Assembly: GCF_018598225.1 (NCBI RefSeq)
Contig: NZ_JAHESF010000028.1
Coordinates: 1-64,000, forward strand
DNA length: 64,000 nucleotides
Source of the DNA: Chryseosolibacter histidinae
GTDB taxonomy: Bacteria; Bacteroidota; Bacteroidia; Cytophagales; Cyclobacteriaceae
Reading direction: 5' to 3'
In this document: positions 15,035 through 25,449 of the stretch, piece by piece
Numbering within the stretch: position 1 is the first letter of the stretch
Layout: every line of letters begins with the position of its first letter
Program-made: the position numbers and the translations under genes
Notes under the pieces: model-generated
Seen by the model: the letters and a program-made list of their open reading frames with translations, nothing else
What the model was told of the DNA's origin: nothing
Databases searched by the model: none

Positions 15035-16366
15035 TTACTTCACAAGGCGGGCGATTGTTTCTCTGTATGATTGAAACTGAAAGGAGTCGAGCACAGCAAG
15101 CATGGCCGAACGGATCTGCTCAAGCGCCAGGTTGCCAATGCTCCCTTCGTGGGTATGCTTTACTGTTGTTTGAGGATGGTAGTTGTTCGCCTCGATATCG
15201 AGACCTACCTTTTTATAGGCGTCGCGGAATGGCATCCCCGAAAGCACAAGTCGGTTCACCTCTTCCACACTGAACAGGTATTTGTATTTTTCGTCGGCCA
15301 GGATCTGCTCTTTTACCTGGATGTTGCTGAGCATGAGCCGGGCTATGCGCAGGCAGTCTTTCAGGCTTTGGATGGCGGGGAACAGAACCTCTTTCAACAG
15401 CTGAAGGTCACGGTGATACCCTGAAGGAAGGTTGGCCGTCATCAGGGCAATATCGTTGGGTACGGCCTGCAGCTGGTTGCAGCGTGAGCGGATCAGCTCG
15501 AACACATCCGGGTTCTTTTTATGCGGCATAATGCTGGAGCCCGTGGTAAGCTCGTCAGGGAAGCTGATGAATCCGAAGTTCTGGTTGAGGAAAAGGCATG
15601 CGTCCATCGACAGCTTGCCCAGCGTAGCGGCAATATTCGATAAGGCGGCAGCAACAATACGCTCCGTTTTGCCCCGTCCCATCTGCGCGTACACCACATT
15701 GTAATTGAGGTCCTCAAATCCAAGCAGCCTGGTAGTCATGGTGCGGTTCAGGGGAAACGACGAGCCATAACCGGCGGCGGATCCCAGCGGGTTTTTATTG
15801 ACCACACGGTAAGCGGCTTGCAGGGTGATCAGGTCATCCACAAGGCTTTCCGCGTAAGCGCCGAACCAAAGTCCGAACGACGAAGGCATGGCCAGCTGCA
15901 GGTGCGTGTAGCCCGGCAGTAAATGTTCCTTGTATTTATCGCTCTGGCTTACCAGCAGGTCAAACAACTCTTTCACCTCATGGACCACCTGCTCGATCTC
16001 GTCGCGGAGATACAGTTTAATATCTACCAGCACCTGGTCGTTCCGTGAGCGGCCGCTATGCATCTTTTTCCCCACGTCGCCCAGCTTACGGGTAAGCTCC
16101 AGCTCCACCTGCGAGTGCACGTCTTCAGTTCCTTCTTCCAGTACAAACTGACCGGCTTCGATGTTCCGGTACAGCTGCTTCAGCTCGGCAGTCAGGATCT
16201 CCAGCTCTTTCTTCTCCAGCAGGCCGATGCTCTCCAACATCTGGATGTGCGCCAGCGATCCCATCACATCAAAACGCGCCAGGTACAGATCCATTTCGCG
16301 GTCTCTGCCTACGGTGAATTTTTCAACTTCTTTTAACGATGTTTTGTCTTTCTGCCAGATCTTCAT
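15035..16366 (-). CDS. argH: Argininosuccinate lyase
   Basis: A 443-residue enzyme catalysing the last step of arginine synthesis, argininosuccinate to arginine plus fumarate. The fumarase/aspartase superfamily signature GSSIMPHKKNP is intact (its Ser is the catalytic residue), with SGRSRNDQV and HTHEGSIGN also present. The length is slightly short of E. coli ArgH (457). It is the last gene of the leftward arginine operon and is separated from the M20 deacylase gene by a 185-base repeat element, so it might be partly uncoupled in expression. Confidence 0.96.
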   Translation of the reverse strand: MKIWQKDKTSLKEVEKFTVGRDREMDLYLARFDVMGSLAHIQMLESIGLLEKKELEILTAELKQLYRNIEAGQFVLEEGTEDVHSQVELELTRKLGDVGKKMHSGRSRNDQVLVDIKLYLRDEIEQVVHEVKELFDLLVSQSDKYKEHLLPGYTHLQLAMPSSFGLWFGAYAESLVDDLITLQAAYRVVNKNPLGSAAGYGSSFPLNRTMTTRLLGFEDLNYNVVYAQMGRGKTERIVAAALSNIAATLGKLSMDACLFLNQNFGFISFPDELTTGSSIMPHKKNPDVFELIRSRCNQLQAVPNDIALMTANLPSGYHRDLQLLKEVLFPAIQSLKDCLRIARLMLSNIQVKEQILADEKYKYLFSVEEVNRLVLSGMPFRDAYKKVGLDIEANNYHPQTTVKHTHEGSIGNLALEQIRSAMLAVLDSFQFQSYRETIARLVK

Positions 16367-16369
16367 ATT

Positions 16370-16553
16370 GGTTGCCGGTTATCAGTTGCCGGTTGCCGGT
16401 TTAGTTTCGTGTATATTTTTAAATGTGACTTCTCAAACTGGACTCACTCCTAACTTTAAACTTTAAACTTCAAACCTTAAACTTCAAACTTTAAACTTCA
16501 AACTTTAAACGATCGCCCCCAACCGGCCACCCGGTAACCGGCAACCGGTAACT
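16370..16553. repeat. Nested heptamer arrays between argH and the M20 gene
   Basis: The outer arms are TTGCCGG-family words: 16370-16401 and, inverted, 16521-16553. The right arm joins the TAG stop of the M20 gene. Inside (16452-16510) is a direct run of about eight AACTTTA/AACTTCA words of the TTTAAAG family with the same seven-base period and no obvious complementary arm. The left arm begins three bases upstream of the argH ATG, so argH has almost no room for a conventional ribosome-binding region outside the repeat. Confidence 0.75.
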
Positions 16554-17637
16554 AGTGCACCACCTCATTCAGCAAGCTCACATAAGTGTCGATACCCTTC
16601 ACGATCTCTGCGATGTAGATGAACTCGTCAGCGGTGTGCGAGCGCGCAGAGTCTCCCGGGCCGATCTTGACGGATGGCACAGGGATGAGCGCCTGGTCTG
16701 AGGTGGTAGGCGATCCGTACAATTGAAGTCCCATTTTCCTCGCGGCGTTCACCAGCGGATGATCGTGGTCGATGCCGGAAGACCGCATGCGTAGTGATCT
16801 TGGCGTAACCTCACACTTCACGTGGGCCTTGATGGTCTCCAGCACTTCTTCCAGGGTGTACATGTCCGTAACCCGTACATCCACGGTGAAGTTACATTCG
16901 GCAGGCACAACATTGTGCTGTTTGCCTGCGCTGATGATGGTGACCGTCATTTTGATCTCGCCCAGGGTTTGAGACACCTTCGGAAATTTGTAGGTCCTGA
17001 ACCACTCGATATCTTTCAGCGCTTCGTACAAGGCGTTCACACCTTCTTCGCGCGCTGCGTGCCCTGATTTTCCTTTGGCCAGGCAATCGAGCACCATCAG
17101 TCCTTTTTCAGCAACGGCCATCTGGCACAGGGTAGGCTCCCCTACAATGGCGAAGTCGATGTTGGGCAGCAGCGACCAGATACTCTCTATTCCGCCAGTA
17201 CCAGAGATCTCTTCTTCTGCCGTGGCGGCGATAACGATGTTATATTTTAAGTTCTGCTGCGGGTAAAAGTTCAGGAAGGTTGCAATGAGCGTCACCAGGG
17301 GTCCGCCGGCATCGTTGCTTCCCAGGCCATACAATCTTTCATCTTCGATCACTGCCGCAAACGGATCGCGTGTATAGCCTGGGTTGGGGCGCACCGTATC
17401 ATGGTGGGAGTTCAGCAGGATGGTGGGCAGCTCCGGGTTGAAATGCCTGTTGCGTGCCCACACGTTGTTGCCCTTCCGCTCTGTTGGAACGCCATGCTGC
17501 TTAAAGAACTCTTGCAGTACAATGGCGGTTTTATCCTCTTCTTTGCTGAACGAAGGGATCGCAATAAGCTGCTGAAGCAGGTTGATCGCTATTTCATCCG
17601 GTTGTAGATCCATATTGCGCTGGATGACGGATACCAT
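16552..17637 (-). CDS. argE: M20 family N-acyl amino acid deacylase (ArgE-like)
   Basis: A 361-residue zinc peptidase-family enzyme with metal-binding motifs HHDTV, an acidic GSNDAGG stretch and the EEE triad in ATAEEEISGTGG. In pathways using an acylornithine carbamoyltransferase, this enzyme removes the acyl group from N-acylcitrulline rather than from acylornithine. That role fits here because the operon contains an ArgF'-type enzyme and no ordinary ornithine carbamoyltransferase. The acyl group could be acetyl or succinyl. ATG at 17637 is used; an internal ATG eight codons on is possible. Confidence 0.88.
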   Translation of the reverse strand: MVSVIQRNMDLQPDEIAINLLQQLIAIPSFSKEEDKTAIVLQEFFKQHGVPTERKGNNVWARNRHFNPELPTILLNSHHDTVRPNPGYTRDPFAAVIEDERLYGLGSNDAGGPLVTLIATFLNFYPQQNLKYNIVIAATAEEEISGTGGIESIWSLLPNIDFAIVGEPTLCQMAVAEKGLMVLDCLAKGKSGHAAREEGVNALYEALKDIEWFRTYKFPKVSQTLGEIKMTVTIISAGKQHNVVPAECNFTVDVRVTDMYTLEEVLETIKAHVKCEVTPRSLRMRSSGIDHDHPLVNAARKMGLQLYGSPTTSDQALIPVPSVKIGPGDSARSHTADEFIYIAEIVKGIDTYVSLLNEVVH

Positions 17638-17673
17638 GACACCGGCAAACCCGGCTCAGGAACTGTGCATCGG

Positions 17674-18462
17674 TTATAAGGTTATGAGTGTTCCTTCTGT
17701 TTCCTGCCCTGTGTTCTTTACCAGGTCGCTGGCCTCGCCGATCAGCACTTCCTTCACACCGGCATGAATGGCCGCATACGCGTTCTCCAGCTTGGGAAGG
17801 ATACCGTCTACGAAAGCCTTTTTGCCGAGCAGGTCCTCGTATAATTTCCGCGGCAGGTGACGGATCACAGAGTCCAGGTCATTCACGTCTTGCAGTACCC
17901 CTTTCTTCTCGAAACAGAAAATGAGGCGTACATCAAAGTGTTTGCTCATGGCTACTGAAAGCACAGAAGCAATGGTGTCGGCGTTGGTGTTGAGCATCTT
18001 GCCATCGGCGTGGGTAAGCGGCGCAAACACCGGCACCGTATTCTGCTTGAGCAGGAAATACAGGAGCGAGGTATTCACACTGTCTTGTTTGATGTCGCCC
18101 ACATATCCATAATCGATATCTTTAACAGGGCGCTTCACGGCTTTGATCATATTGGCGTCGGCACCGGTCAGTCCCAGCGCGTTGCATCCCAGCTTCTGCA
18201 GCGAGGCAACGATCTGTTTGTTCACAAGGCCTCCGTAAACCATCGTTACCAGGTCAAGCGTGGCGGCGTCAGTGATCCTTCTGCCCTGAATGTAGTTCGA
18301 TTCGATGCCCAGCTGATTGCCGATCTTGGTGGCGATCTTTCCGCCGCCATGGATCAGCACTTTCGGTTCCTTGATAGACGAGAAGTCGTGCAGGAATTTC
18401 TCCAGTGCATCCGGGTGATCCAGCACATTGCCACCGATCTTGATTACAAAAAGCCTGTTCAT
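17674..18462 (-). CDS. argB: Acetylglutamate (acylglutamate) kinase
   Basis: A 262-residue amino-acid kinase phosphorylating N-acylglutamate. It shows the N-terminal KIGGN motif, HGGG phosphate loop, TDAATLDLVTMVYGGLVNK segment and the NINADTIAS-like region (NTNADTIASVLS). The longer frame from 18525 would overlap argF', and its first 21 codons do not resemble ArgB; ATG at 18462 starts exactly at the usual MN..FVIKIGG position. It is 11 bases downstream of argF' in the operon. The kinase may act on succinylglutamate if the operon runs on succinylated intermediates. Confidence 0.94.
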   Translation of the reverse strand: MNRLFVIKIGGNVLDHPDALEKFLHDFSSIKEPKVLIHGGGKIATKIGNQLGIESNYIQGRRITDAATLDLVTMVYGGLVNKQIVASLQKLGCNALGLTGADANMIKAVKRPVKDIDYGYVGDIKQDSVNTSLLYFLLKQNTVPVFAPLTHADGKMLNTNADTIASVLSVAMSKHFDVRLIFCFEKKGVLQDVNDLDSVIRHLPRKLYEDLLGKKAFVDGILPKLENAYAAIHAGVKEVLIGEASDLVKNTGQETEGTLITL

Positions 18463-18473
18463 ATCCGCATCAC

Positions 18474-19433
18474 TTATTTTTTTACATTGGCCAGCAACTC
18501 GCTGAGCACAGCCTGGGCAGCCCACGTTCTGTTGGAAGCCTGTTGTGTAACAATGCTGTTGAAGCTGTCGAGCACTTCGTCGCTCAGCTCAACATTTCTG
18601 CGCACCGGCAGGCAGTGCATCACTTTGGCGTGGTTGGTATTCAGCAATTTTTCTGTGGTCAGCATCCACTCGGGGTCGTTGCAGTAGATCCTCCCATAGT
18701 CAGCATACGTGCTCCAGTTCTTCACGTACACGAAGTCGGCATCGCGCAGGGCGTAGTCCTGGTCGTGTGTGATGGCGGCACCTTTGGTGAAAGCAGGATC
18801 GAGCTCGTAGTCTTCAGGGTGTGTGATCACGAAGTCGGCGTGTCCCCACGCGTTGATCCACTGGGCAAAGCTGTTGGCCACGCATTGCGGCAGGGCCTTG
18901 ACGTGCGGCGCCCAGGTGAGCACGATCTTCGGCCTCCGGTGCTCCTTGAACGTTTCCGTGATGGTGATAATGTCCGTAAGGCTTTGCAGGGGATGCAGTG
19001 TGGCGCTTTCGAGGCTCACCACCGGCACGCCCGCATATTTGATAAATTGTTTGATGTAAAGCTCGCTGTAGTCATCCGCTTTGTTCTGCAGCGACGGGAA
19101 TGTGCGGATGCCCAGGACATCGAAATATCTTCCGAGGATAGGCGCGGCGTCTTTCACGTGCTCAACGGTGTTTCCGCTCATGATGGCCTCATCTTCGAAC
19201 TCGAACGTCCATCCCTCCTGTCCTACATTGAAAACGATCGCTTCCATGCCGAGGTTGGCGGCGGCGATCTGTGTGCTGAGCCTGGTGCGCATGCTCGGGT
19301 TCAGGAAGATGAGCCCGATGCGTTTGTTCGCGCCCAGGGCTTTATCGCGCAGCGGATCGGCTTTGTAGGCCAGCGCTTTGTGCACGAGGGCATTGATATC
19401 GTGTGCGTCGTGTACGGAAATAAAGTTCTTCAT
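18474..19433 (-). CDS. argF': N-acylornithine carbamoyltransferase (probably succinylornithine type)
   Basis: A 319-residue transcarbamylase that makes N-acylcitrulline from N-acylornithine and carbamoyl phosphate. The carbamoyl-phosphate motif is SMRTR (in place of STRTR). HPLQSLTDIITI and HCLPVRRNVE match the acetyl/succinylornithine branch, not ordinary OTCases. At the position known to set acyl preference (Glu92 in Xanthomonas AOTCase, Pro90 in Bacteroides fragilis SOTCase) this protein has Val90 in GNTVEH. Substitution of that Glu by Val is reported to favour succinylornithine. The start overlaps the argD stop by ATGA. Confidence 0.92.
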   Translation of the reverse strand: MKNFISVHDAHDINALVHKALAYKADPLRDKALGANKRIGLIFLNPSMRTRLSTQIAAANLGMEAIVFNVGQEGWTFEFEDEAIMSGNTVEHVKDAAPILGRYFDVLGIRTFPSLQNKADDYSELYIKQFIKYAGVPVVSLESATLHPLQSLTDIITITETFKEHRRPKIVLTWAPHVKALPQCVANSFAQWINAWGHADFVITHPEDYELDPAFTKGAAITHDQDYALRDADFVYVKNWSTYADYGRIYCNDPEWMLTTEKLLNTNHAKVMHCLPVRRNVELSDEVLDSFNSIVTQQASNRTWAAQAVLSELLANVKK

Positions 19434-20551
19434 TGCAGTTCCTTGTTCAATGCGGTTAAAAACAGATCAGCTTCATCTTTGGTCATGGCCAGCGAAGGCA
19501 GCAGCCTGATGGTGTTGGGCTTCGCTTCGCCTGTAAAGATATGATGTTTAAAAAGCAAATCCTGTCTTACGTGCTTCAACGTTTCAGGCACGTCGAAGCC
19601 GATCATCAGCCCCCGGCCACGCAGACCCGTGATGGCAGGAAAGGTGGCAAGTTTGTCGAGCCAGTAAGTGCCGATGGTGGCTGCGTTCCGGATGAGGTTC
19701 TCTTTCTCCATTACCTCCAGCACGGCCAGACCGGCAACAGATGCCAGGTAATTGCCCCCAAAAGTTGTTCCCAGCATGCCGCTCCAGGGTTTGATGTCAG
19801 GGTGAATGAACAATCCACCGATGGGAAAACCGTTGCCCATACCTTTGGCCGTGGTGATCAGGTGCGGCCTGATGCCGGCAAACTGGTGCGCAAAGAATTT
19901 CCCGGTGCGGCCATAGCCCGACTGAATTTCATCCAGGATCAGTAAGGAACCGTTCGCCGCACATTTCTTCTCCAGGAACTTGAGGAACGAATCGTCAGGC
20001 ACCTGGATGCCGCCCACACCCTGAATGCCTTCGATGATCACAGCCGCAACATCGCGATCAAGTGCCTGCGAGAAGGCAGTCTCGTCATTGAACGGCACAA
20101 AAACGATCTCGTGCCCCGCATTGAAGGGCGCCACGATCTTGGGATTGTCAGTGGCCGCAACAGCACCTGAGGTACGACCGTGAAAAGCCTTTTTGAAGGC
20201 GATCACTTTTTTCCTGCCCGTAACGAACGATGCAAGCTTCAAAGCGTTCTCGTTGGCTTCCGCGCCCGAGTTGCAGAGAAAAAGCTGGTAATCTTCATAA
20301 CCAGAGATCTTGCCGAGCTTTTCGGCAAACTTCGCCTGCAGATCGTTCTGCACACTGTTGGAGTAAAATGCAATTTTAGCAAGCTGATCGCTCAGGCTTT
20401 TAACATAGTGAGGATGTGAATGCCCAATGGAGATCACGGCATGACCGCCATAAAGGTCCAGGTACTTCTCGCCTTTTTCATCCCAGAGCCAGGAGCCCTG
20501 CGCTTTTACGGGTGTGATGTTGAAGAGCGGATAAACGTCGAATAGTTTCAT
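19430..20551 (-). CDS. argD: Acylornithine aminotransferase
   Basis: A 373-residue class III PLP-dependent aminotransferase converting N-acylglutamate semialdehyde to N-acylornithine with glutamate. The PLP lysine is in TTAKGMGNGFPIGG; LILDEIQSGYGRTGKFFAHQ supplies the cofactor Asp; LCNSGAEANENALKLA is the phosphate-binding region. Somewhat shorter than E. coli ArgD (406). Its stop overlaps the argF' start, which supports coupled translation. Substrate acyl group follows that of the pathway. Confidence 0.95.
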   Translation of the reverse strand: MKLFDVYPLFNITPVKAQGSWLWDEKGEKYLDLYGGHAVISIGHSHPHYVKSLSDQLAKIAFYSNSVQNDLQAKFAEKLGKISGYEDYQLFLCNSGAEANENALKLASFVTGRKKVIAFKKAFHGRTSGAVAATDNPKIVAPFNAGHEIVFVPFNDETAFSQALDRDVAAVIIEGIQGVGGIQVPDDSFLKFLEKKCAANGSLLILDEIQSGYGRTGKFFAHQFAGIRPHLITTAKGMGNGFPIGGLFIHPDIKPWSGMLGTTFGGNYLASVAGLAVLEVMEKENLIRNAATIGTYWLDKLATFPAITGLRGRGLMIGFDVPETLKHVRQDLLFKHHIFTGEAKPNTIRLLPSLAMTKDEADLFLTALNKELQ

Positions 20552-20593
20552 TGCTTAGCAGAGGGGAATCGTGCTTTGTTTATGCACAGAATT

Positions 20594-21565
20594 TTAGAAT
20601 ACAATACTTTTAAGTTTCAGTCCTGAGGCCTCCGGCAGACCGAACATGAGGTTCATGTTCTGAACGGCTTGTCCTGAAGCGCCTTTCAGCAGGTTGTCGA
20701 TAGCGGAATGCACCACCAGCTTGTCGCCTTCTTTCTCCAGCCCGATCACACATTTGTTGGTGTTCACGATCTGCTTGAGGTCCACCGTATCCTGCGATAC
20801 GAGGGTGAAGGGATGGCCGTGGTAATAGTCCGCGTAAAGTTTTTTCACTTCGTCGAGCGGTTTGTCTACGGTGACGCACGAGCTCACGAAGATGCCGCGG
20901 GTGAAGTCGCCGCGCCAGGGCACAAAGTTGATCGCGCTGTTGAAGGCAGGCTGCAGCTGTTTCAACGAGCGGTTGATCTCTTTCAGGTGCTGATGGGTGA
21001 GCGTTTTGTAAGCCGAAATATTGTTGGCGCGCCAGGTGAAGTGTGTTGTATCCTGCAGCTTCTGCCCTGCCCCTGTAGAGCCGGTGATGCCGGTAGTGTA
21101 TACCTCCTGCAGCAGTCCCGCTTTGGCCAGGGGCAGCAAGCCAAGCTCGATAGCGGTGGCGAAGCAACCAGGATTGGCAATATTGGAAGCCTGTTTGATG
21201 CGGTCGCGATTCATTTCAGGAAGGCCGTAAACAAACTCGCGTCCGGGCACGGATTCACCCAGGCGGAAATCCTGGCTCAGGTCAATGATTCTGATCGAAG
21301 GGTTGATCTTGTTCTCTTCCAGGAATTTTTTACTCTCGCCGTGGCCCAGGCACAGAAACAGCACATCCACCTGCTGCTGGATCACATCCGTGAACAGCAG
21401 GGAGGTCTCTCCCAGCAGATCAGGGTGCGCCGCATGCAAGGGACTGCCCGCATGACTCCTGCTGTGCACAAACACCAGCTCCGCCTGCGGATGGTTCAAC
21501 AAAAGCCTGATGGCCTCGCCTCCTCCGTATCCCGCACCACCGATGATTCCAATTCTGATTTTCAT
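20594..21565 (-). CDS. argC: N-acetyl-gamma-glutamyl-phosphate reductase
   Basis: A 323-residue NADPH-dependent reductase. The Rossmann glycine motif is GIIGGAGYGGGEAIRLL at the N-terminus, and the catalytic Cys is in ANPGCFATAIELGLLPL. It reduces N-acylglutamyl phosphate to the semialdehyde. Length matches the type 1 ArgC family. It lies 42 bases upstream of argD and is separated from argG by a heptamer-array element of about 150 bases. Confidence 0.95.
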   Translation of the reverse strand: MKIRIGIIGGAGYGGGEAIRLLLNHPQAELVFVHSRSHAGSPLHAAHPDLLGETSLLFTDVIQQQVDVLFLCLGHGESKKFLEENKINPSIRIIDLSQDFRLGESVPGREFVYGLPEMNRDRIKQASNIANPGCFATAIELGLLPLAKAGLLQEVYTTGITGSTGAGQKLQDTTHFTWRANNISAYKTLTHQHLKEINRSLKQLQPAFNSAINFVPWRGDFTRGIFVSSCVTVDKPLDEVKKLYADYYHGHPFTLVSQDTVDLKQIVNTNKCVIGLEKEGDKLVVHSAIDNLLKGASGQAVQNMNLMFGLPEASGLKLKSIVF

Positions 21566-21601
21566 TTTGTTATAGACACCTAAATTTCAAAACTTCGTTT
21601 T

Positions 21602-21712
21602 GGTTGCCAGTTGCCTGTTGCCGGTCTCGAGTCAGTTTCAGTTTTCAGTACCCGAACTTCGAAAAGTTAGACCGGCTTGAACCGGCCATCCGGTAACTGG
21701 CAACTGGCAACC
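21602..21712. repeat. Heptamer-array inverted repeat, TTGCCGG family
   Basis: Left arm 21602-21626 (GGTTGCCAGTTGCC words), right arm 21670-21712 (complementary CCGGTAACTGGCAACTGG words), loop about 43 bases. It occupies the argG-argC spacer. As RNA inside the operon transcript it would form a stable hairpin and could protect or terminate part of the message. Confidence 0.75.
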
Positions 21713-21716
21713 GATC

Positions 21717-22916
21717 TCACTTCTCTTTCTCTGCCTTCACCTGATTATAGATCATCGTCTGATTTCCGAAGATCTTCGAAAACCCTTTCACGTCATCACC
21801 CGACCAGCCCAGGTTCATCTCTCCGTATTTGCCGAACTTGGACGACATGAGGTCATACCCTGATTCGATGCCCAGCACCTGGAAGCGGTAGGGATGAAGC
21901 TGCACATGCACTTCTCCCGTTACATGCTGTTGTGTGTTGGTGAGGAAAGCTTCGATGTCGCGCATCACAGGATCGAGGTACTGGCCTTCGTGCAGCCAGT
22001 TGCCATAGAACTGGGCAAGCTGATCTTTCCAGCTCAGCTGCCACTTGGTGAGCACGTGTTTCTCCAGCGCGTGGTGTGCCTTGATCACTACCATCGGTGC
22101 GGCAGCTTCGAAGCCCACACGGCCTTTGATGCCGATGATGGTGTCGCCCACATGCACATCTCTTCCGATGCCGTAAGGTCCGGCGATGGATTGTATATAT
22201 TGGATGGCTTCCGTGGGGTGTGCGAACTTTTTATCGTTCACCTCCAGCAGTTCGCCCTTCTCGAATTTCAGCTTCAGGGTTTCGGTGCCATTTTTGGTCA
22301 CCTGTGTAGGCCACGCTTCTTCCGGCAGCATGCCCAGCGACTTCAGGGTCTCCTTGCCACCAACGGATGTGCCCCAGATACCTTTGTTGATGGAGTACAT
22401 GGCCTTGTCGAAGTTCATCTGCACACCCTTCGACTTGAGGTAGCTGATCTCTTCCTCGCGCGACAGCTTCATATCGCGGATCGGCGTGATGATCTCGATG
22501 CCGGGCACGAGGATGTTGAGGATCATATCAAAACGCACCTGGTCGTTTCCAGCGCCTGTGCTGCCATGCGCCACGGCATCGGCTTTCAGCGCACCGGCGT
22601 AATTGGCCGTGGCCAGCGCCTGCGACATCCGCTCAGCGCTCACGCTCAGGGGATAGGTGTTGTTCTTGAGAACATTGCCATAGATGAGGAACCGGATCAC
22701 CTTGTCGTAATAATTCCGTGTTTCATCCACGGTCTTATGGGAGGCCACGCCCAGACTTTTCGCGCGGTCTTCAATGGCCTTGATCTCGGCCTGATCGAAT
22801 CCGCCGGTGTTCACGGTGAGGGTGTGCACTTCGTAGCCCAGATCCTCGCTCAAATACTTAACGCAGTAGGACGTATCTAACCCACCGCTAAAAGCCAAAA
22901 CAACTTTTTTCTTCAT
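21717..22916 (-). CDS. argG: Argininosuccinate synthase
   Basis: A 399-residue ligase joining citrulline and aspartate with ATP. The N-terminal P-loop-type ATP pyrophosphatase motif AFSGGLDTSYCVKYL is intact, and GSTGAGNDQVRFD is the conserved citrulline/ATP region. Length fits the family. It is the second gene of the operon, after the GNAT gene. Substrate here would be free citrulline released by the M20 deacylase encoded downstream. Confidence 0.96.
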   Translation of the reverse strand: MKKKVVLAFSGGLDTSYCVKYLSEDLGYEVHTLTVNTGGFDQAEIKAIEDRAKSLGVASHKTVDETRNYYDKVIRFLIYGNVLKNNTYPLSVSAERMSQALATANYAGALKADAVAHGSTGAGNDQVRFDMILNILVPGIEIITPIRDMKLSREEEISYLKSKGVQMNFDKAMYSINKGIWGTSVGGKETLKSLGMLPEEAWPTQVTKNGTETLKLKFEKGELLEVNDKKFAHPTEAIQYIQSIAGPYGIGRDVHVGDTIIGIKGRVGFEAAAPMVVIKAHHALEKHVLTKWQLSWKDQLAQFYGNWLHEGQYLDPVMRDIEAFLTNTQQHVTGEVHVQLHPYRFQVLGIESGYDLMSSKFGKYGEMNLGWSGDDVKGFSKIFGNQTMIYNQVKAEKEK

Positions 22917-23001
22917 TTAACAGATGCAATGATTATGATGGTCAAAGGTATACCTTTCCTTTTTACAAGTACATTGATCTTCCCGGAAAGGGCCGGAAAG
23001 T

Positions 23002-23784
23002 TTACCAGAAAAAGAAAAAGCTCAGTATGGATTTTTTCCGATCGGATGAGTCGGCTTGTCCGTCGTCCTTCTTACCGAACGCTTTCAGCAGCACAAACTG
23101 CTTGAAGCGAACCCATCGCTCGAACAGCCTGAAGTTGCCTTTGAAGCCGCGCTGGTAGTGGTGGTGGTTGACCAGTTCGCCCTGCGGTGTAACGGCAGCG
23201 CCCTGCTTGACAGGAGGCAACGGCATGTTGAGCTTGGCGGCAGCTTCCACGGGATCGAAAAGCATGGCGGTGCAGAGGCAGTTCTTCCGCTGCTTGCTCA
23301 TGAGGATGTCGTAGTTCACGCAGCTTCTGCAGCCCTTCCAGAACTCTTCGTCGGTGGTGAGCTCGGAGTAGGTTACCGGCTCGTAGCCAAGGTCCGAGTT
23401 GATCTTCATCACGGCGAGGCCTGTGGTGAGCCCGAAGATCTTGGCGTTGGGATATTTTTGTCTCGATAGTTCGAAGATCTTGCTTTTGATCTCTGTAGCC
23501 ACGCCAGTCTTGCGGAATGCGGGTGACACGATCAGGCCGGAGTTGGCAACGTATTTATCGTGCTGCCAGGCTTCGATGTAGCAGAAACCTACCCAGGTGC
23601 CGTCTTTGGTGACGGCAATAACTGCTTTGCCTTCCTCCATTTTTCTGACAATGTAGTCAGGCGAACGCTTGGCGATTCCGGTGCCGCGCGCTTTTGCTGA
23701 TTCTTCCATCTCTGTGGTGATGGTCTCAGCGTAATGTTTGTCGTCAGACGTAGCCAGTCTGACAATTATATCGTTCGTTTCCAA
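23002..23784 (-). CDS. GNAT acetyltransferase heading the arginine operon; candidate N-acylglutamate synthase
   Basis: A 260-residue protein. Residues about 5-150 form a GNAT fold, with the acyl-CoA loop region in SPAFRKTGVATEIKSKIF. After it comes a Cys-rich segment (Cys152, Cys155, Cys169, Cys171: a CxxC and a CxC) and then a poorly ordered tail of about 85 residues. No classical ArgA or bifunctional ArgJ occurs in the window. As the first gene of the operon it is the natural candidate for the committed step, acylation of glutamate by acetyl- or succinyl-CoA. The Cys cluster may bind a metal. Role is inferred from context. Confidence 0.8.
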   Translation of the reverse strand: METNDIIVRLATSDDKHYAETITTEMEESAKARGTGIAKRSPDYIVRKMEEGKAVIAVTKDGTWVGFCYIEAWQHDKYVANSGLIVSPAFRKTGVATEIKSKIFELSRQKYPNAKIFGLTTGLAVMKINSDLGYEPVTYSELTTDEEFWKGCRSCVNYDILMSKQRKNCLCTAMLFDPVEAAAKLNMPLPPVKQGAAVTPQGELVNHHHYQRGFKGNFRLFERWVRFKQFVLLKAFGKKDDGQADSSDRKKSILSFFFFW

Positions 23785-23820: not shown

Positions 23821-23866
23821 ATAATGCCTAAAAGCATTTGCGGCATGACGTCCTTGACATCGTGCC
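23821..23866 (-). promoter_or_regulatory. Leader hairpins upstream of the arginine operon
   Basis: On the operon strand a 12-pair stem (CGGCACGATGTC with GACGTCATGCCG, loop of three) is followed at once by a weak ATGCC/GGCAT or AATGC/GCATT hairpin and a T-rich stretch. The ATGCC segment can belong to only one of the two stems at a time. This is the layout of an antiterminator/terminator pair between the leader peptide and the GNAT start. On the opposite strand the strong stem is followed by six Ts, so it could also stop transcription from the left; no such gene is seen. Confidence 0.4.
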
Positions 23867-23898
23867 GTTTTTTAACACAGAATGTTAAGGGTATGTTA

Positions 23899-24006
23899 TC
23901 AAATCCGCGGGCAGCGTGCGGGTCGGGGTCGCCTGGTCACCATCAAGGCGGTAGAGAAGAACTGAACTGTTCTGAGGGAGTGGTAAGCAGCCATAGCTGC
24001 TGACAT
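23899..24006 (-). CDS. Candidate arginine leader peptide (attenuator)
   Basis: A 35-codon reading frame with ATG start and a TGA-TAA double stop, 115 bases upstream of the first gene of the arginine operon. Its last 11 codons include five arginines (positions 25, 26, 28, 31, 34; codons AGG, CGA, CGA, CGC, CGG), interspersed with prolines. Residues 16-24 read FFSTALMVT. An Arg-rich short peptide in this place is what a ribosome-stalling attenuator needs: lack of charged tRNA-Arg would stall the ribosome here and change the downstream RNA fold. I cannot confirm conservation without comparison. Confidence 0.6.
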   Translation of the reverse strand: MSAAMAAYHSLRTVQFFSTALMVTRRPRPARCPRI

Positions 24007-24089
24007 AAGGGTGAACACTGTTTTCAATTTCTTTTAACTGTTTGGTTAACGTTAGAGGAAAGTCATTCAGTTTGTTTTTAATATTTATG

Positions 24090-24123
24090 CAAAATTAAAC
24101 GATAAAGTTTTCACAATGACAAA
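24090..24123 (-). promoter_or_regulatory. Candidate promoter of the arginine operon
   Basis: On the minus strand, TAATTTTG (24090-24097) matches the Bacteroidota -7 consensus TAnnTTTG, with TTTG at 24120-24123 as a -33 element. The spacer is 22 bases, slightly long. Transcription from here would give about 75 bases before the leader peptide and a leader of roughly 300 bases before the GNAT gene. Confidence 0.45.
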
Positions 24124-24178
24124 CATTTACGCAAAAACTTTAAAAAAAGTTTCTGCACGAACGAAAGTTAGTTGAAGA

Positions 24179-24332
24179 GTCGACGGTCCATGGTCCACAG
24201 TCCACAGACGGGTTCGCGTGAAGTCACAACCTTGTACTTCGTGCCAGGAGTTTTCAAATTGGCAAAGATGCTGTAGGCAAAATCGACGTTAACACGATCT
24301 TGCCGTGGACCGTCGACTGTGGACCGTGGACT
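24179..24332. repeat. Heptamer-array inverted repeat, GTCCACG/GTCCATG mixed family
   Basis: Left arm 24179-24212 (GTCGACG-GTCCATG-GTCCACA words), right arm 24303-24332 with complementary words, loop about 90 bases. It lies between the PorP/SprF stop and the arginine promoter region. Confidence 0.75.
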
Positions 24333-24336
24333 CTGT

Positions 24337-25449
24337 TCAGAAATCGGGGCAGGGAATTACCAGCTTATCCTTCGGTGGTTTGCGCGGGTTGCGCATGGGC
24401 CAGGTGTACACCAGGCTGAACTCGTGGGCTCCGCCGCTTCCAGGGCCGAGCTTGGAAATGGTATAATCGAAGCTGTAGCCGATGTTGATGGCATCTTTGG
24501 CGCCCAGCTTGGTGAAGCCGAGGAGCAGCACGATGGATTCGTTGTTCACAAATCCGTTCACACTTTTGAAAGGCACACCCCGGTACCAGGTTCCCAGCAC
24601 CAGTGGCTCGAAAGTGAAATACAAACCGAGGTCGAGCTGATCGAAATTGCCCTGGTGGCGATACTGGAACGCAGGCGCAATGCTTCGCTCGGCATTCCGC
24701 GCATACACGCCACTGCCTACCACACCTGACCTCATGAAATATTTGAAACCTCCGTGGGCAGACAACTTCACAGGAAGGGGGGCTTTTTCCCCGATGAGGG
24801 TCTGGTTGGGTTTGTTCAGGTGGTTGGCGGCGAACCCGAGCCAGGCCACCTTGGTGAACACCACACCGCCTGCGGAAAGATCAACAAATGTTCTGCTGCC
24901 TTTATCGCCAAACTGCTCCGCGGTAGGCCGGTCAATGAATTCGCCCGTGTTGGGATCGAACTGATCTCCGAACGTGAGCTTGTCGAAGCCCACATCGCGG
25001 TTATACAAGCTCACCTGAAAGCCGGGACGAAATCCCAGATTCTTGGTGATCTCTAACTCGTAAGAATACTGCAGGGCGAGTTGCAATGATCGCAGGCTGG
25101 CCAGCCCTTCCTGGTCGCGCATCAGCATCACGCCCACCCCACTGCTCTTGTCTTCGATAAAGTAATCGAAGTAGGCAGACATGGTGGTGAAATTGGCATC
25201 GATCGCAGGCCACTGATTGCGATAGTTGATGCCGGCGCGGGCCTGTCCTGTAGACCCGGCAAAAGCGGGGTTCAGATACAAGGGCGCTGCATAAAACTGG
25301 GAAAACTGCGGATCCTGAGCAGTTACTGTCCCCATCGTCACCAGCATCAATAGGCACATCAGCGATAACCGGAACGGGGTGGTCCGCCATTTTACAGGAA
25401 ATATCCCCGAAGGGCGGCCACTGATCTGCAGACTTATGTGTCTATACAT
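24337..25449 (-). CDS. PorP/SprF family type IX secretion outer-membrane protein
   Basis: A 370-residue outer-membrane beta-barrel protein. The mature N-terminus QDPQFSQFYAAPLYLNPAFAGS is the signature of the PorP/SprF family, and the C-terminal strand region contains FDYTISKLG. Homologues help secrete or attach particular T9SS substrates such as the adhesin SprB. The signal peptide is preceded by about 30 extra residues from the first ATG; an internal Met (LSLMCLLMLVT) may be the true start. It is divergent from the giant type-B substrate gene 250 bases away, the usual pairing of a SprF-like protein with its client. Confidence 0.92.
   Translation of the reverse strand: MYRHISLQISGRPSGIFPVKWRTTPFRLSLMCLLMLVTMGTVTAQDPQFSQFYAAPLYLNPAFAGSTGQARAGINYRNQWPAIDANFTTMSAYFDYFIEDKSSGVGVMLMRDQEGLASLRSLQLALQYSYELEITKNLGFRPGFQVSLYNRDVGFDKLTFGDQFDPNTGEFIDRPTAEQFGDKGSRTFVDLSAGGVVFTKVAWLGFAANHLNKPNQTLIGEKAPLPVKLSAHGGFKYFMRSGVVGSGVYARNAERSIAPAFQYRHQGNFDQLDLGLYFTFEPLVLGTWYRGVPFKSVNGFVNNESIVLLLGFTKLGAKDAINIGYSFDYTISKLGPGSGGAHEFSLVYTWPMRNPRKPPKDKLVIPCPDF

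Follow-up and report, generated by a model that had tools for sequence, protein, structure and literature searches.

A translated arginine-rich leader peptide as the likely sensor of an arginine operon in Bacteroidota

The arginine operon of Chryseosolibacter histidinae is preceded by a short, arginine-rich leader frame, and comparison with related loci makes it likely that a translated leader peptide allows this operon to respond to arginine via the ribosome. Sensing by translation is suggested by the coding selection on the frame, the density of its arginine codons and the bias in codon choice. Leader-peptide control itself is known; what is probably new here is such control of a biosynthetic arginine operon, with an output that is probably non-canonical. 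We analyzed a stretch of 64,000 nucleotides (contig NZ_JAHESF010000028.1, positions 1 to 64,000; hereafter the window), in which the following features were delimited.

24090-24097, minus strand (24097-24090): -7 promoter element TAATTTTG, a perfect TANNTTTG match, from motif search and conserved position
23899-24027, minus strand: leader ORF MKTVFTLMSAAMAAYHSLRTVQFFSTALMVTRRPRPARCPRI, with TTG start at 24027-24025, 42 codons and TGA stop at 23901-23899
23931-23949, minus strand: short helix inside the leader (GCCTT...CAGGC), with the first Arg codon in its 3' arm
23905-23934, minus strand: Arg-codon cluster AGG CGA CCC CGA CCC GCA CGC TGC CCG CGG, with five Arg
23872-23888, minus strand: hairpin A, TTAACA-TTCTG-TGTTAA, just after the stop; similar small hairpins were seen by eye in relatives
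23841-23867, minus strand: hairpin B, CGGCACGATGTC-AAG-GACGTCATGCCG, from folding and covariation
23824-23846, minus strand: alternative terminator-like hairpin ATGCC...GGCAT, -4.9 kcal/mol, the best terminator-like hairpin of the window
23823-23838, minus strand: hairpin C, AATGCT-TTTA-GGCATT, formed in all three ribosome states folded
23002-23784, minus strand: first gene, GNAT acetyltransferase (PF00583), with a TTG start
15035-22916, minus strand: rest of the operon, argG, argC, argD, N-acetylornithine carbamoyltransferase-like, argB, argE/dapE-like and argH

An arginine-rich leader frame upstream of the operon

The original prediction had placed an arginine operon downstream of the leader, and this was borne out: the minus strand encodes, in order, GNAT, argG, argC, argD, the carbamoyltransferase-like gene, argB, the argE/dapE-like gene and argH. 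The GNAT gene is presumed to be argA-like, a function assigned from its position, and is directly followed by argG in 241 of the 256 loci examined. On its upstream side, the leader is flanked by a gene for a PorP/SprF-type protein.

In the window, the leader peptide ends in ...VTRRPRPARCPRI*, with five Arg within its last 11 codons; an in-frame TAA directly follows the TGA, and 117 nt separate the leader stop from the first gene. The arginine codons are spaced (RRPRPAR..RI), unlike the contiguous HHHHH or WWW of other leaders. Using sequence patterns, we sorted leaders from related loci into four groups of distinct sequences (I, n = 26, which includes the window; II, n = 18; III, n = 24; IV, n = 7). 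The frame had originally been described as 35 codons long and ending in TGA-TAA. Its TGA, its in-frame TAA and its five Arg in the last 11 codons all stand, but the ATG start does not. Translation most likely starts at TTG 24027-24025 rather than at ATG 24006, as judged by comparison among relatives: TTG is the first start in all 26 leaders of group I, and in the eight of them displayed it stands at codon -42; any in-frame ATG is present in just 15 of the 26. The second stop is not conserved, since the stop context in group I is TGATAC in 21/26 rows and TGATAA in two, the window included. Across groups I-IV, each of the 75 leaders has TTG as the first start in its open frame, and within the window both the leader (24027) and the GNAT gene (23784) begin with it. 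Rfam covariance models for riboswitches, T-boxes and leader RNAs gave no matches in the window at the gathering score, and Pfam and NCBIfam gave none for the four leader peptides queried.

The sequence TANNTTTG is the consensus of the Bacteroidota-type -7 promoter element. A perfect copy had been predicted upstream of the leader, and it is indeed found at 24097-24090. The motif alone is unremarkable, with 27 occurrences in the window versus 29.9 expected by chance; its position is kept in groups I-IV, where a -7 box begins 46-88 nt 5' of the first start codon in 25/26, 16/18, 24/24 and 4/7 leaders, respectively (the nearer copy being taken where two were listed). None of eight group V leaders has a box at this position. 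A further copy, TACCTTTG at 22943-22950 on the minus strand, stands 26 nt before the argG start and is a possible internal promoter, of a motif no commoner than chance in the window.

Just upstream of the arginine promoter, positions 24176-24340 of the window hold paired inverted copies, about 106 nt apart, of a GTGGACCGTCGACTGTGGACCGTGGACT-like repeat. This repeat is a dispersed REP/BIME-like family, with at least 67 matches in the own genome, the query place among them, from the scoring of 40 out of 314 first-look candidates.

Relatives keep the frame, with a bias towards synonymous change

A DNA search of 59 genomes, the own genome included, gave matches in seven others. Five of these were homologous leaders (L002-L005, L007), so that DNA alone recovered them in 5/58 other related genomes; the short and weak matches L006 and L008 were set aside. 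We also used the GNAT protein as a handle. Within the family it had a match in 135/148 genomes, from which the 30 best and 60 more were fetched as loci; among named genomes the best 80 of 522 matches were used; and in a draw across the phylum it had a match in 103/247 genomes, from which 90 loci were examined (best loci and 60 fetched stretches). Named relatives with leader loci comprise Chryseosolibacter, Ohtaekwangia, Chryseolinea, Dawidia, Cyclobacteriaceae and Flammeovirgaceae MAGs and many Chitinophaga.

The pattern for group I required Arg at -11, Arg or His at -10, Pro at -7, Arg at -5, Arg at -2 and Ile at -1, counted from the stop, and the group patterns missed some leaders (e.g., L010, L020 and L061). 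We therefore report selection outside the pattern-fixed codons, as the fraction of synonymous changes among single-base codon differences. This share was 0.44, 0.50, 0.37 and 0.55 in groups I, II, III and IV, versus expected values of 0.27, 0.23, 0.25 and 0.31; with the pattern-fixed codons included it rose to 0.53, 0.68, 0.56 and 0.83. For the two remaining reading frames of group I it was 0.25 and 0.23, as expected. Arg at -8, on which the group I pattern placed no demand, is present in 26/26 leaders of that group. An alignment of relatives had been proposed as a check on the original prediction, and in it the frame and its Arg codons are kept with a clear synonymous bias (0.44 vs 0.27 in group I), which argues that the leader frame is translated and under coding selection.

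A second set was assembled free of any pattern, by taking the most Arg-rich short ORF in each of 88 distinct loci (the window, 17 close relatives and the named loci). The 87 loci that could be measured, the 88th being cut by a contig end, all had at least three Arg in the last 12 codons, and 82/87 had at least four.

An N-terminal Asn-Ile-Ala/Ser, or a similar sequence, occurs soon after the start whatever the amino acid sensed, in many of the leaders L027-L037 and L119-L131 and also in the his and trp leaders L275, L280, L303, L305 and L306. This shared N-terminus is possibly an initiation feature.

Arginine enrichment and codon choice

For each amino acid, we counted occurrences over the final 12 codons of every short ORF upstream and kept the highest value per locus. 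The 15 of 256 loci without argG beside GNAT were dropped, and removal of duplicates, contig-end regions and regions with non-ACGT letters left 229 distinct loci. The mean for Arg was 3.51, versus 0.89 in dinucleotide shuffles (z 42). Pro came next with z 10.5, followed by Ala with 8.0, and Lys was depleted. At least four Arg were present in 147/229 loci (64%), versus 1% in shuffles, and 47/229 had fewer than three in the tested region.

Across the phylum draw, loci with argG beside GNAT had at least three Arg in 51/78 cases and at least four in 40/78; where argG was not beside GNAT, the counts were 3/12 and 2/12. Families f1, f22, f23, f25, f26 and f41 contributed clearly (f41 with 14/14 loci at four Arg or more), f42 was weak (4/8 at three or more, 1/8 at four or more), and no locus of f13, f24, f29, f40 or f45 in this draw reached three. 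A leader profile searched against 60 genomes returned five strong matches, every one at an arg operon, and elsewhere in these genomes nothing better than E 0.06.

Codon choice in the leaders differs from that of the genes they precede. AGG and CGA account for 29% and 25% of leader Arg codons (means over 147 loci) and for 11% and 9% in GNAT and argG, or 54% versus 20% when combined. CGA makes up 3% of the Arg codons in 14 window genes and two of the five in the window leader. RNA structure may account for part of this bias. In the published account of Salmonella orf34, regulation was as good with frequent Arg codons as with rare ones (PMC6386406), so sensing does not depend on rarity.

Leaders and ArgR across the phylum

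A search of the window genome with PF01316 (ArgR) gave no match. In the family, 1/98 genomes had a match above the cut-off, in a 304-residue frame, and because of that frame the match may not be ArgR. Among the 247 genomes of the phylum draw, 93 had an ArgR match, 103 had GNAT and four had both, two with weak ArgR matches and two with strong ones (family f29). At the f29 loci L260 and L261, an ArgR-like ORF stands directly upstream of the GNAT-argG operon, where a leader would stand, and no Arg-rich leader was found upstream of GNAT. With no ArgR found in 99/103 phylum genomes with GNAT, the leader probably does the work of ArgR. This distribution follows lineages, and related genomes are not independent; it is therefore to be read as a pattern, short of statistical proof that leaders replaced ArgR. 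Leader peptides offer a possible answer to how many Bacteroidota without detectable ArgR regulate arginine synthesis.

RNA structure and the output of the leader

We propose that, when charged tRNA-Arg is scarce, the ribosome would pause on the Arg codons of the leader. The pause would alter events in the structured RNA that separates the leader stop from the first gene, and operon expression would go up; with plentiful arginine, the ribosome would reach the UGA and expression would go down. Candidates for the output are a pause site or weak terminator and, on the model of Salmonella speF, Rho-dependent termination or decay of the mRNA.

The region from stop to gene has more structure than its shuffled counterparts (mean z -1.86). 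Hairpin B covaries, with 9/9 pairs changed on both sides in group I, and hairpin C is followed immediately by the U-rich ATTTTATTTT at 23822-23813. The helix inside the leader is paired in 94.6% of cells of the 26 group I sequences, with one compensatory change at one pair, which lends it weak support. Mutually exclusive hairpins had been predicted in the window, and hairpin B and the alternative hairpin at 23846-23824 do exclude each other, since the alternative uses part of the 3' arm of B. The prediction was sustained in this respect, and B is strongly supported by covariation, but the competitor was not found in the relatives compared by eye, and no switch emerged in the window when a ribosome mask was applied during folding.

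Other candidate pairings were rejected. In group III, helix D flanks the Arg codons, with a 5' arm in codons -9/-8 and a 3' arm reaching from codon -2 into the stop. Its pairing amounts to 97.9%, but 6/8 of its pairs are invariant, and changes on both sides (9 cells) occur at one pair only, where 4/24 cells are unpaired. At this single pair, helix D tends to couple residue -8 (Tyr or Phe) with the choice of Arg codon at -2. Helix E, beside D, is 93.5% paired with covariation no better than shuffles, and the overlap of either helix with a clear terminator is too small to prove a switch. For group I, no covariation was seen in a candidate helix at the stop codon. Pairing of the Arg-codon segment with downstream RNA was dropped as well, with z -0.18 over 147 loci versus -0.17 for a control segment.

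The his and trp leaders of the same and related genomes served as a comparison. The own-genome leaders carry LNISLHHHHH and MRFTNIAWWWHK, and a scan of even hairpin lengths only placed terminators of -14 and -22.7 kcal/mol, respectively, after them. For the wider counts, hairpins of all lengths were scanned, and the his/trp set consisted of the 25 of 37 hisG/trpE loci with a recognizable leader, five weaker TrpE-like loci (L310-L314) and the ilvD loci being left out. We found a terminator of -12 kcal/mol or stronger in just 5/147 Arg leaders (1/50 in the own family), versus 21/25 his/trp leaders. The window leader itself has no strong intrinsic terminator before the first gene, the best hairpin being that of -4.9 kcal/mol. 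Hence, an output through a strong intrinsic terminator, as in trp/his-type attenuators, is improbable.

His leaders at hisG (L275, L279, L280, L287), Trp leaders at trpE (L303, L305, L306 and others among L291-L309) and branched-chain leader peptides at ilvD (L317, L318, L326, L328) were all seen in the window genome or its relatives.

Control by ribosome pausing could be exerted through Rho termination or mRNA decay, a serious possibility that we nevertheless hold to be short of probable. There is a published precedent in Salmonella orf34-speF, which, in the parts of the report drawn on here, senses arginine at two consecutive Arg codons and acts via Rho, RNA structure and RNase G (PMC6386406). 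The absence of strong terminators from most Arg leaders fits such an output, as does the composition of the first 40 nt past the stop, where C is in excess of G (0.27 vs 0.19), but this excess is small.

We regard as somewhat unlikely a canonical attenuator of the trp/his type, in which stalling at Arg codons would switch between an antiterminator and an intrinsic terminator, formed by hairpin C, the hairpin at 23846-23824, or B. The leader, its Arg codons and the hairpins do follow one another as they usually would, hairpin B and its alternative are mutually exclusive in the window, and canonical-looking his and trp attenuators exist in the window genome and its relatives. Terminator-like hairpins are also enriched at Arg leaders, although they are weak: 50/147 reach -6 kcal/mol or lower, versus 7% in shuffles. 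Against this reading stands the scarcity of strong terminators at Arg leaders, together with the results of folding. When full-length transcripts were folded with a ribosome mask on the first Arg codon or on the stop, no switch appeared, but this test was uninformative, since the E. coli thr, leu, trp and his leaders were equally flat; truncated transcripts, which recovered E. coli thr, leu and trp and, weakly, his, were used instead. Here, a switch in the expected direction appeared in 7/26, 8/18, 0/24 and 1/7 loci of groups I, II, III and IV, and 7, 3, 17 and 0 hairpins, respectively, responded in the opposite sense. The expected switch in some loci of groups I and II speaks for an attenuator and its absence from group III against it; these foldings revealed no conserved antiterminator or terminator/antiterminator switch in the Arg leaders. 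The classical attenuation arrangement that had been proposed for this operon is thus upheld as regards a leader, apparently translated, with clustered Arg codons (z 42) between promoter and first gene. It is not upheld as regards a strong terminator (5/147 vs 21/25), no conserved switch emerged from the foldings, and the Arg codons are spaced.

A possible contribution of the nascent chain

Besides its codons, the leader chain itself could act, its conserved residues and its Arg-Ile-UGA end stalling the ribosome at or near the stop in response to arginine or a related metabolite. We consider this unlikely, although several features of the leaders favor it. All 87 measurable loci of the pattern-free set, picked by Arg content alone, end in Arg-Ile-TGA. 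Arg at -2 is kept with both CGN and AGR codons in groups II-IV and with four CGN codons in group I. Residues other than Arg are kept as well: Thr, Phe, Val and Ile columns are invariant across 15 hand-picked group I-type leaders, and, once the demand of the pattern is lifted, Pro occupies -7 in 27/29 leaders with a group I-type end, written in group I with all four Pro codons.

Other observations weigh against a nascent-chain sensor. The two exceptions at -7 (L020 and L061) have Ala, and the C-terminal motifs vary by lineage (RRPRPARFARI, FRYLSRRPRI, LAPLRRFRNSFRA, LRRIPRRR and TRRRP), so that residues of the nascent chain are under selection within groups and not between distant lineages. Outside groups I-IV the stops include TAA and TAG. 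Moreover, the rare-codon bias fits codon sensing, and nucleotides kept close to the stop may have a role in RNA structure.

It is very improbable that the leader is a chance Arg-rich ORF or a conserved untranslated RNA: Arg-rich ORFs can arise in GC-rich DNA (2/12 control loci without argG reach four Arg) and hairpins are present, but an Arg z of 42, four or more Arg in just 1% of shuffles, and a synonymous bias that is absent from the other two frames argue against both.

Sensing of arginine by translation of the leader thus remains our preferred reading. A broader proposal, which we find rather doubtful, is that in much of Bacteroidota fast-evolving arginine leader peptides replaced ArgR and work by a non-terminator mechanism, in which nascent chain and stop codon would co-sense arginine or a related metabolite.

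Relation to known systems

Leader peptides have been glimpsed in Bacteroidota before. In part of the text of a B. thetaiotaomicron map, ORFs reminiscent of leader peptides are described (PMC7366714), and the relevant section of a 2021 F. psychrophilum transcriptome mentions 'strong clues' that amino-acid operons are attenuated by leader peptides lying before them, with pheA and hisG among the conserved 5' elements and arginine not named in that section (PMC9723704). In the papers searched, we found no described arginine-operon leader in Bacteroidota.

ArgR does the same job as the proposed leader, but it is a DNA-binding protein, and it was not found in the window genome by the PF01316 search. 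The fungal arginine attenuator peptide, a eukaryotic system with nascent-chain arrest at high arginine, is likewise an arginine-responsive leader of an arginine-pathway gene. Ribosome stalling by bacterial leader peptides extends to SpeFL, the E. coli counterpart of Salmonella orf34, which stalls the ribosome for ornithine. In what we have drawn from its literature, the TnaC leader peptide stalls the ribosome in response to Trp.

As far as the excerpts used here go, orf34-speF senses arginine by pausing at Arg codons, AGG and CGG among them, in a conserved leader, and its output is no simple terminator switch (PMC6386406); the leaders of this study probably resemble it in both respects. The Salmonella system differs in its peptide, in belonging to polyamine synthesis in gammaproteobacteria, and in that the leaders described here precede a biosynthetic arginine operon in Bacteroidota. 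The S. aureus rbfL leader also senses arginine through rare Arg codons, but, according to the portion of the report at hand, rbfL covers the ribosome-binding site of a biofilm regulator and controls translation, with no biosynthetic operon involved (PMC13009471).

In layout, the Arg leaders resemble the his and trp attenuators (E. coli hisL, trpL), in which a short leader is likewise translated, contains codons for the amino acid that the operon makes, and is followed by RNA structure before the first gene. Unlike them, the Arg leaders have spaced, AGG/CGA-biased codons, conserved non-Arg residues and mostly no strong terminator. Related genomes therefore offer a natural side-by-side of strong-terminator leaders (his, trp) and mostly terminator-less ones (arg).
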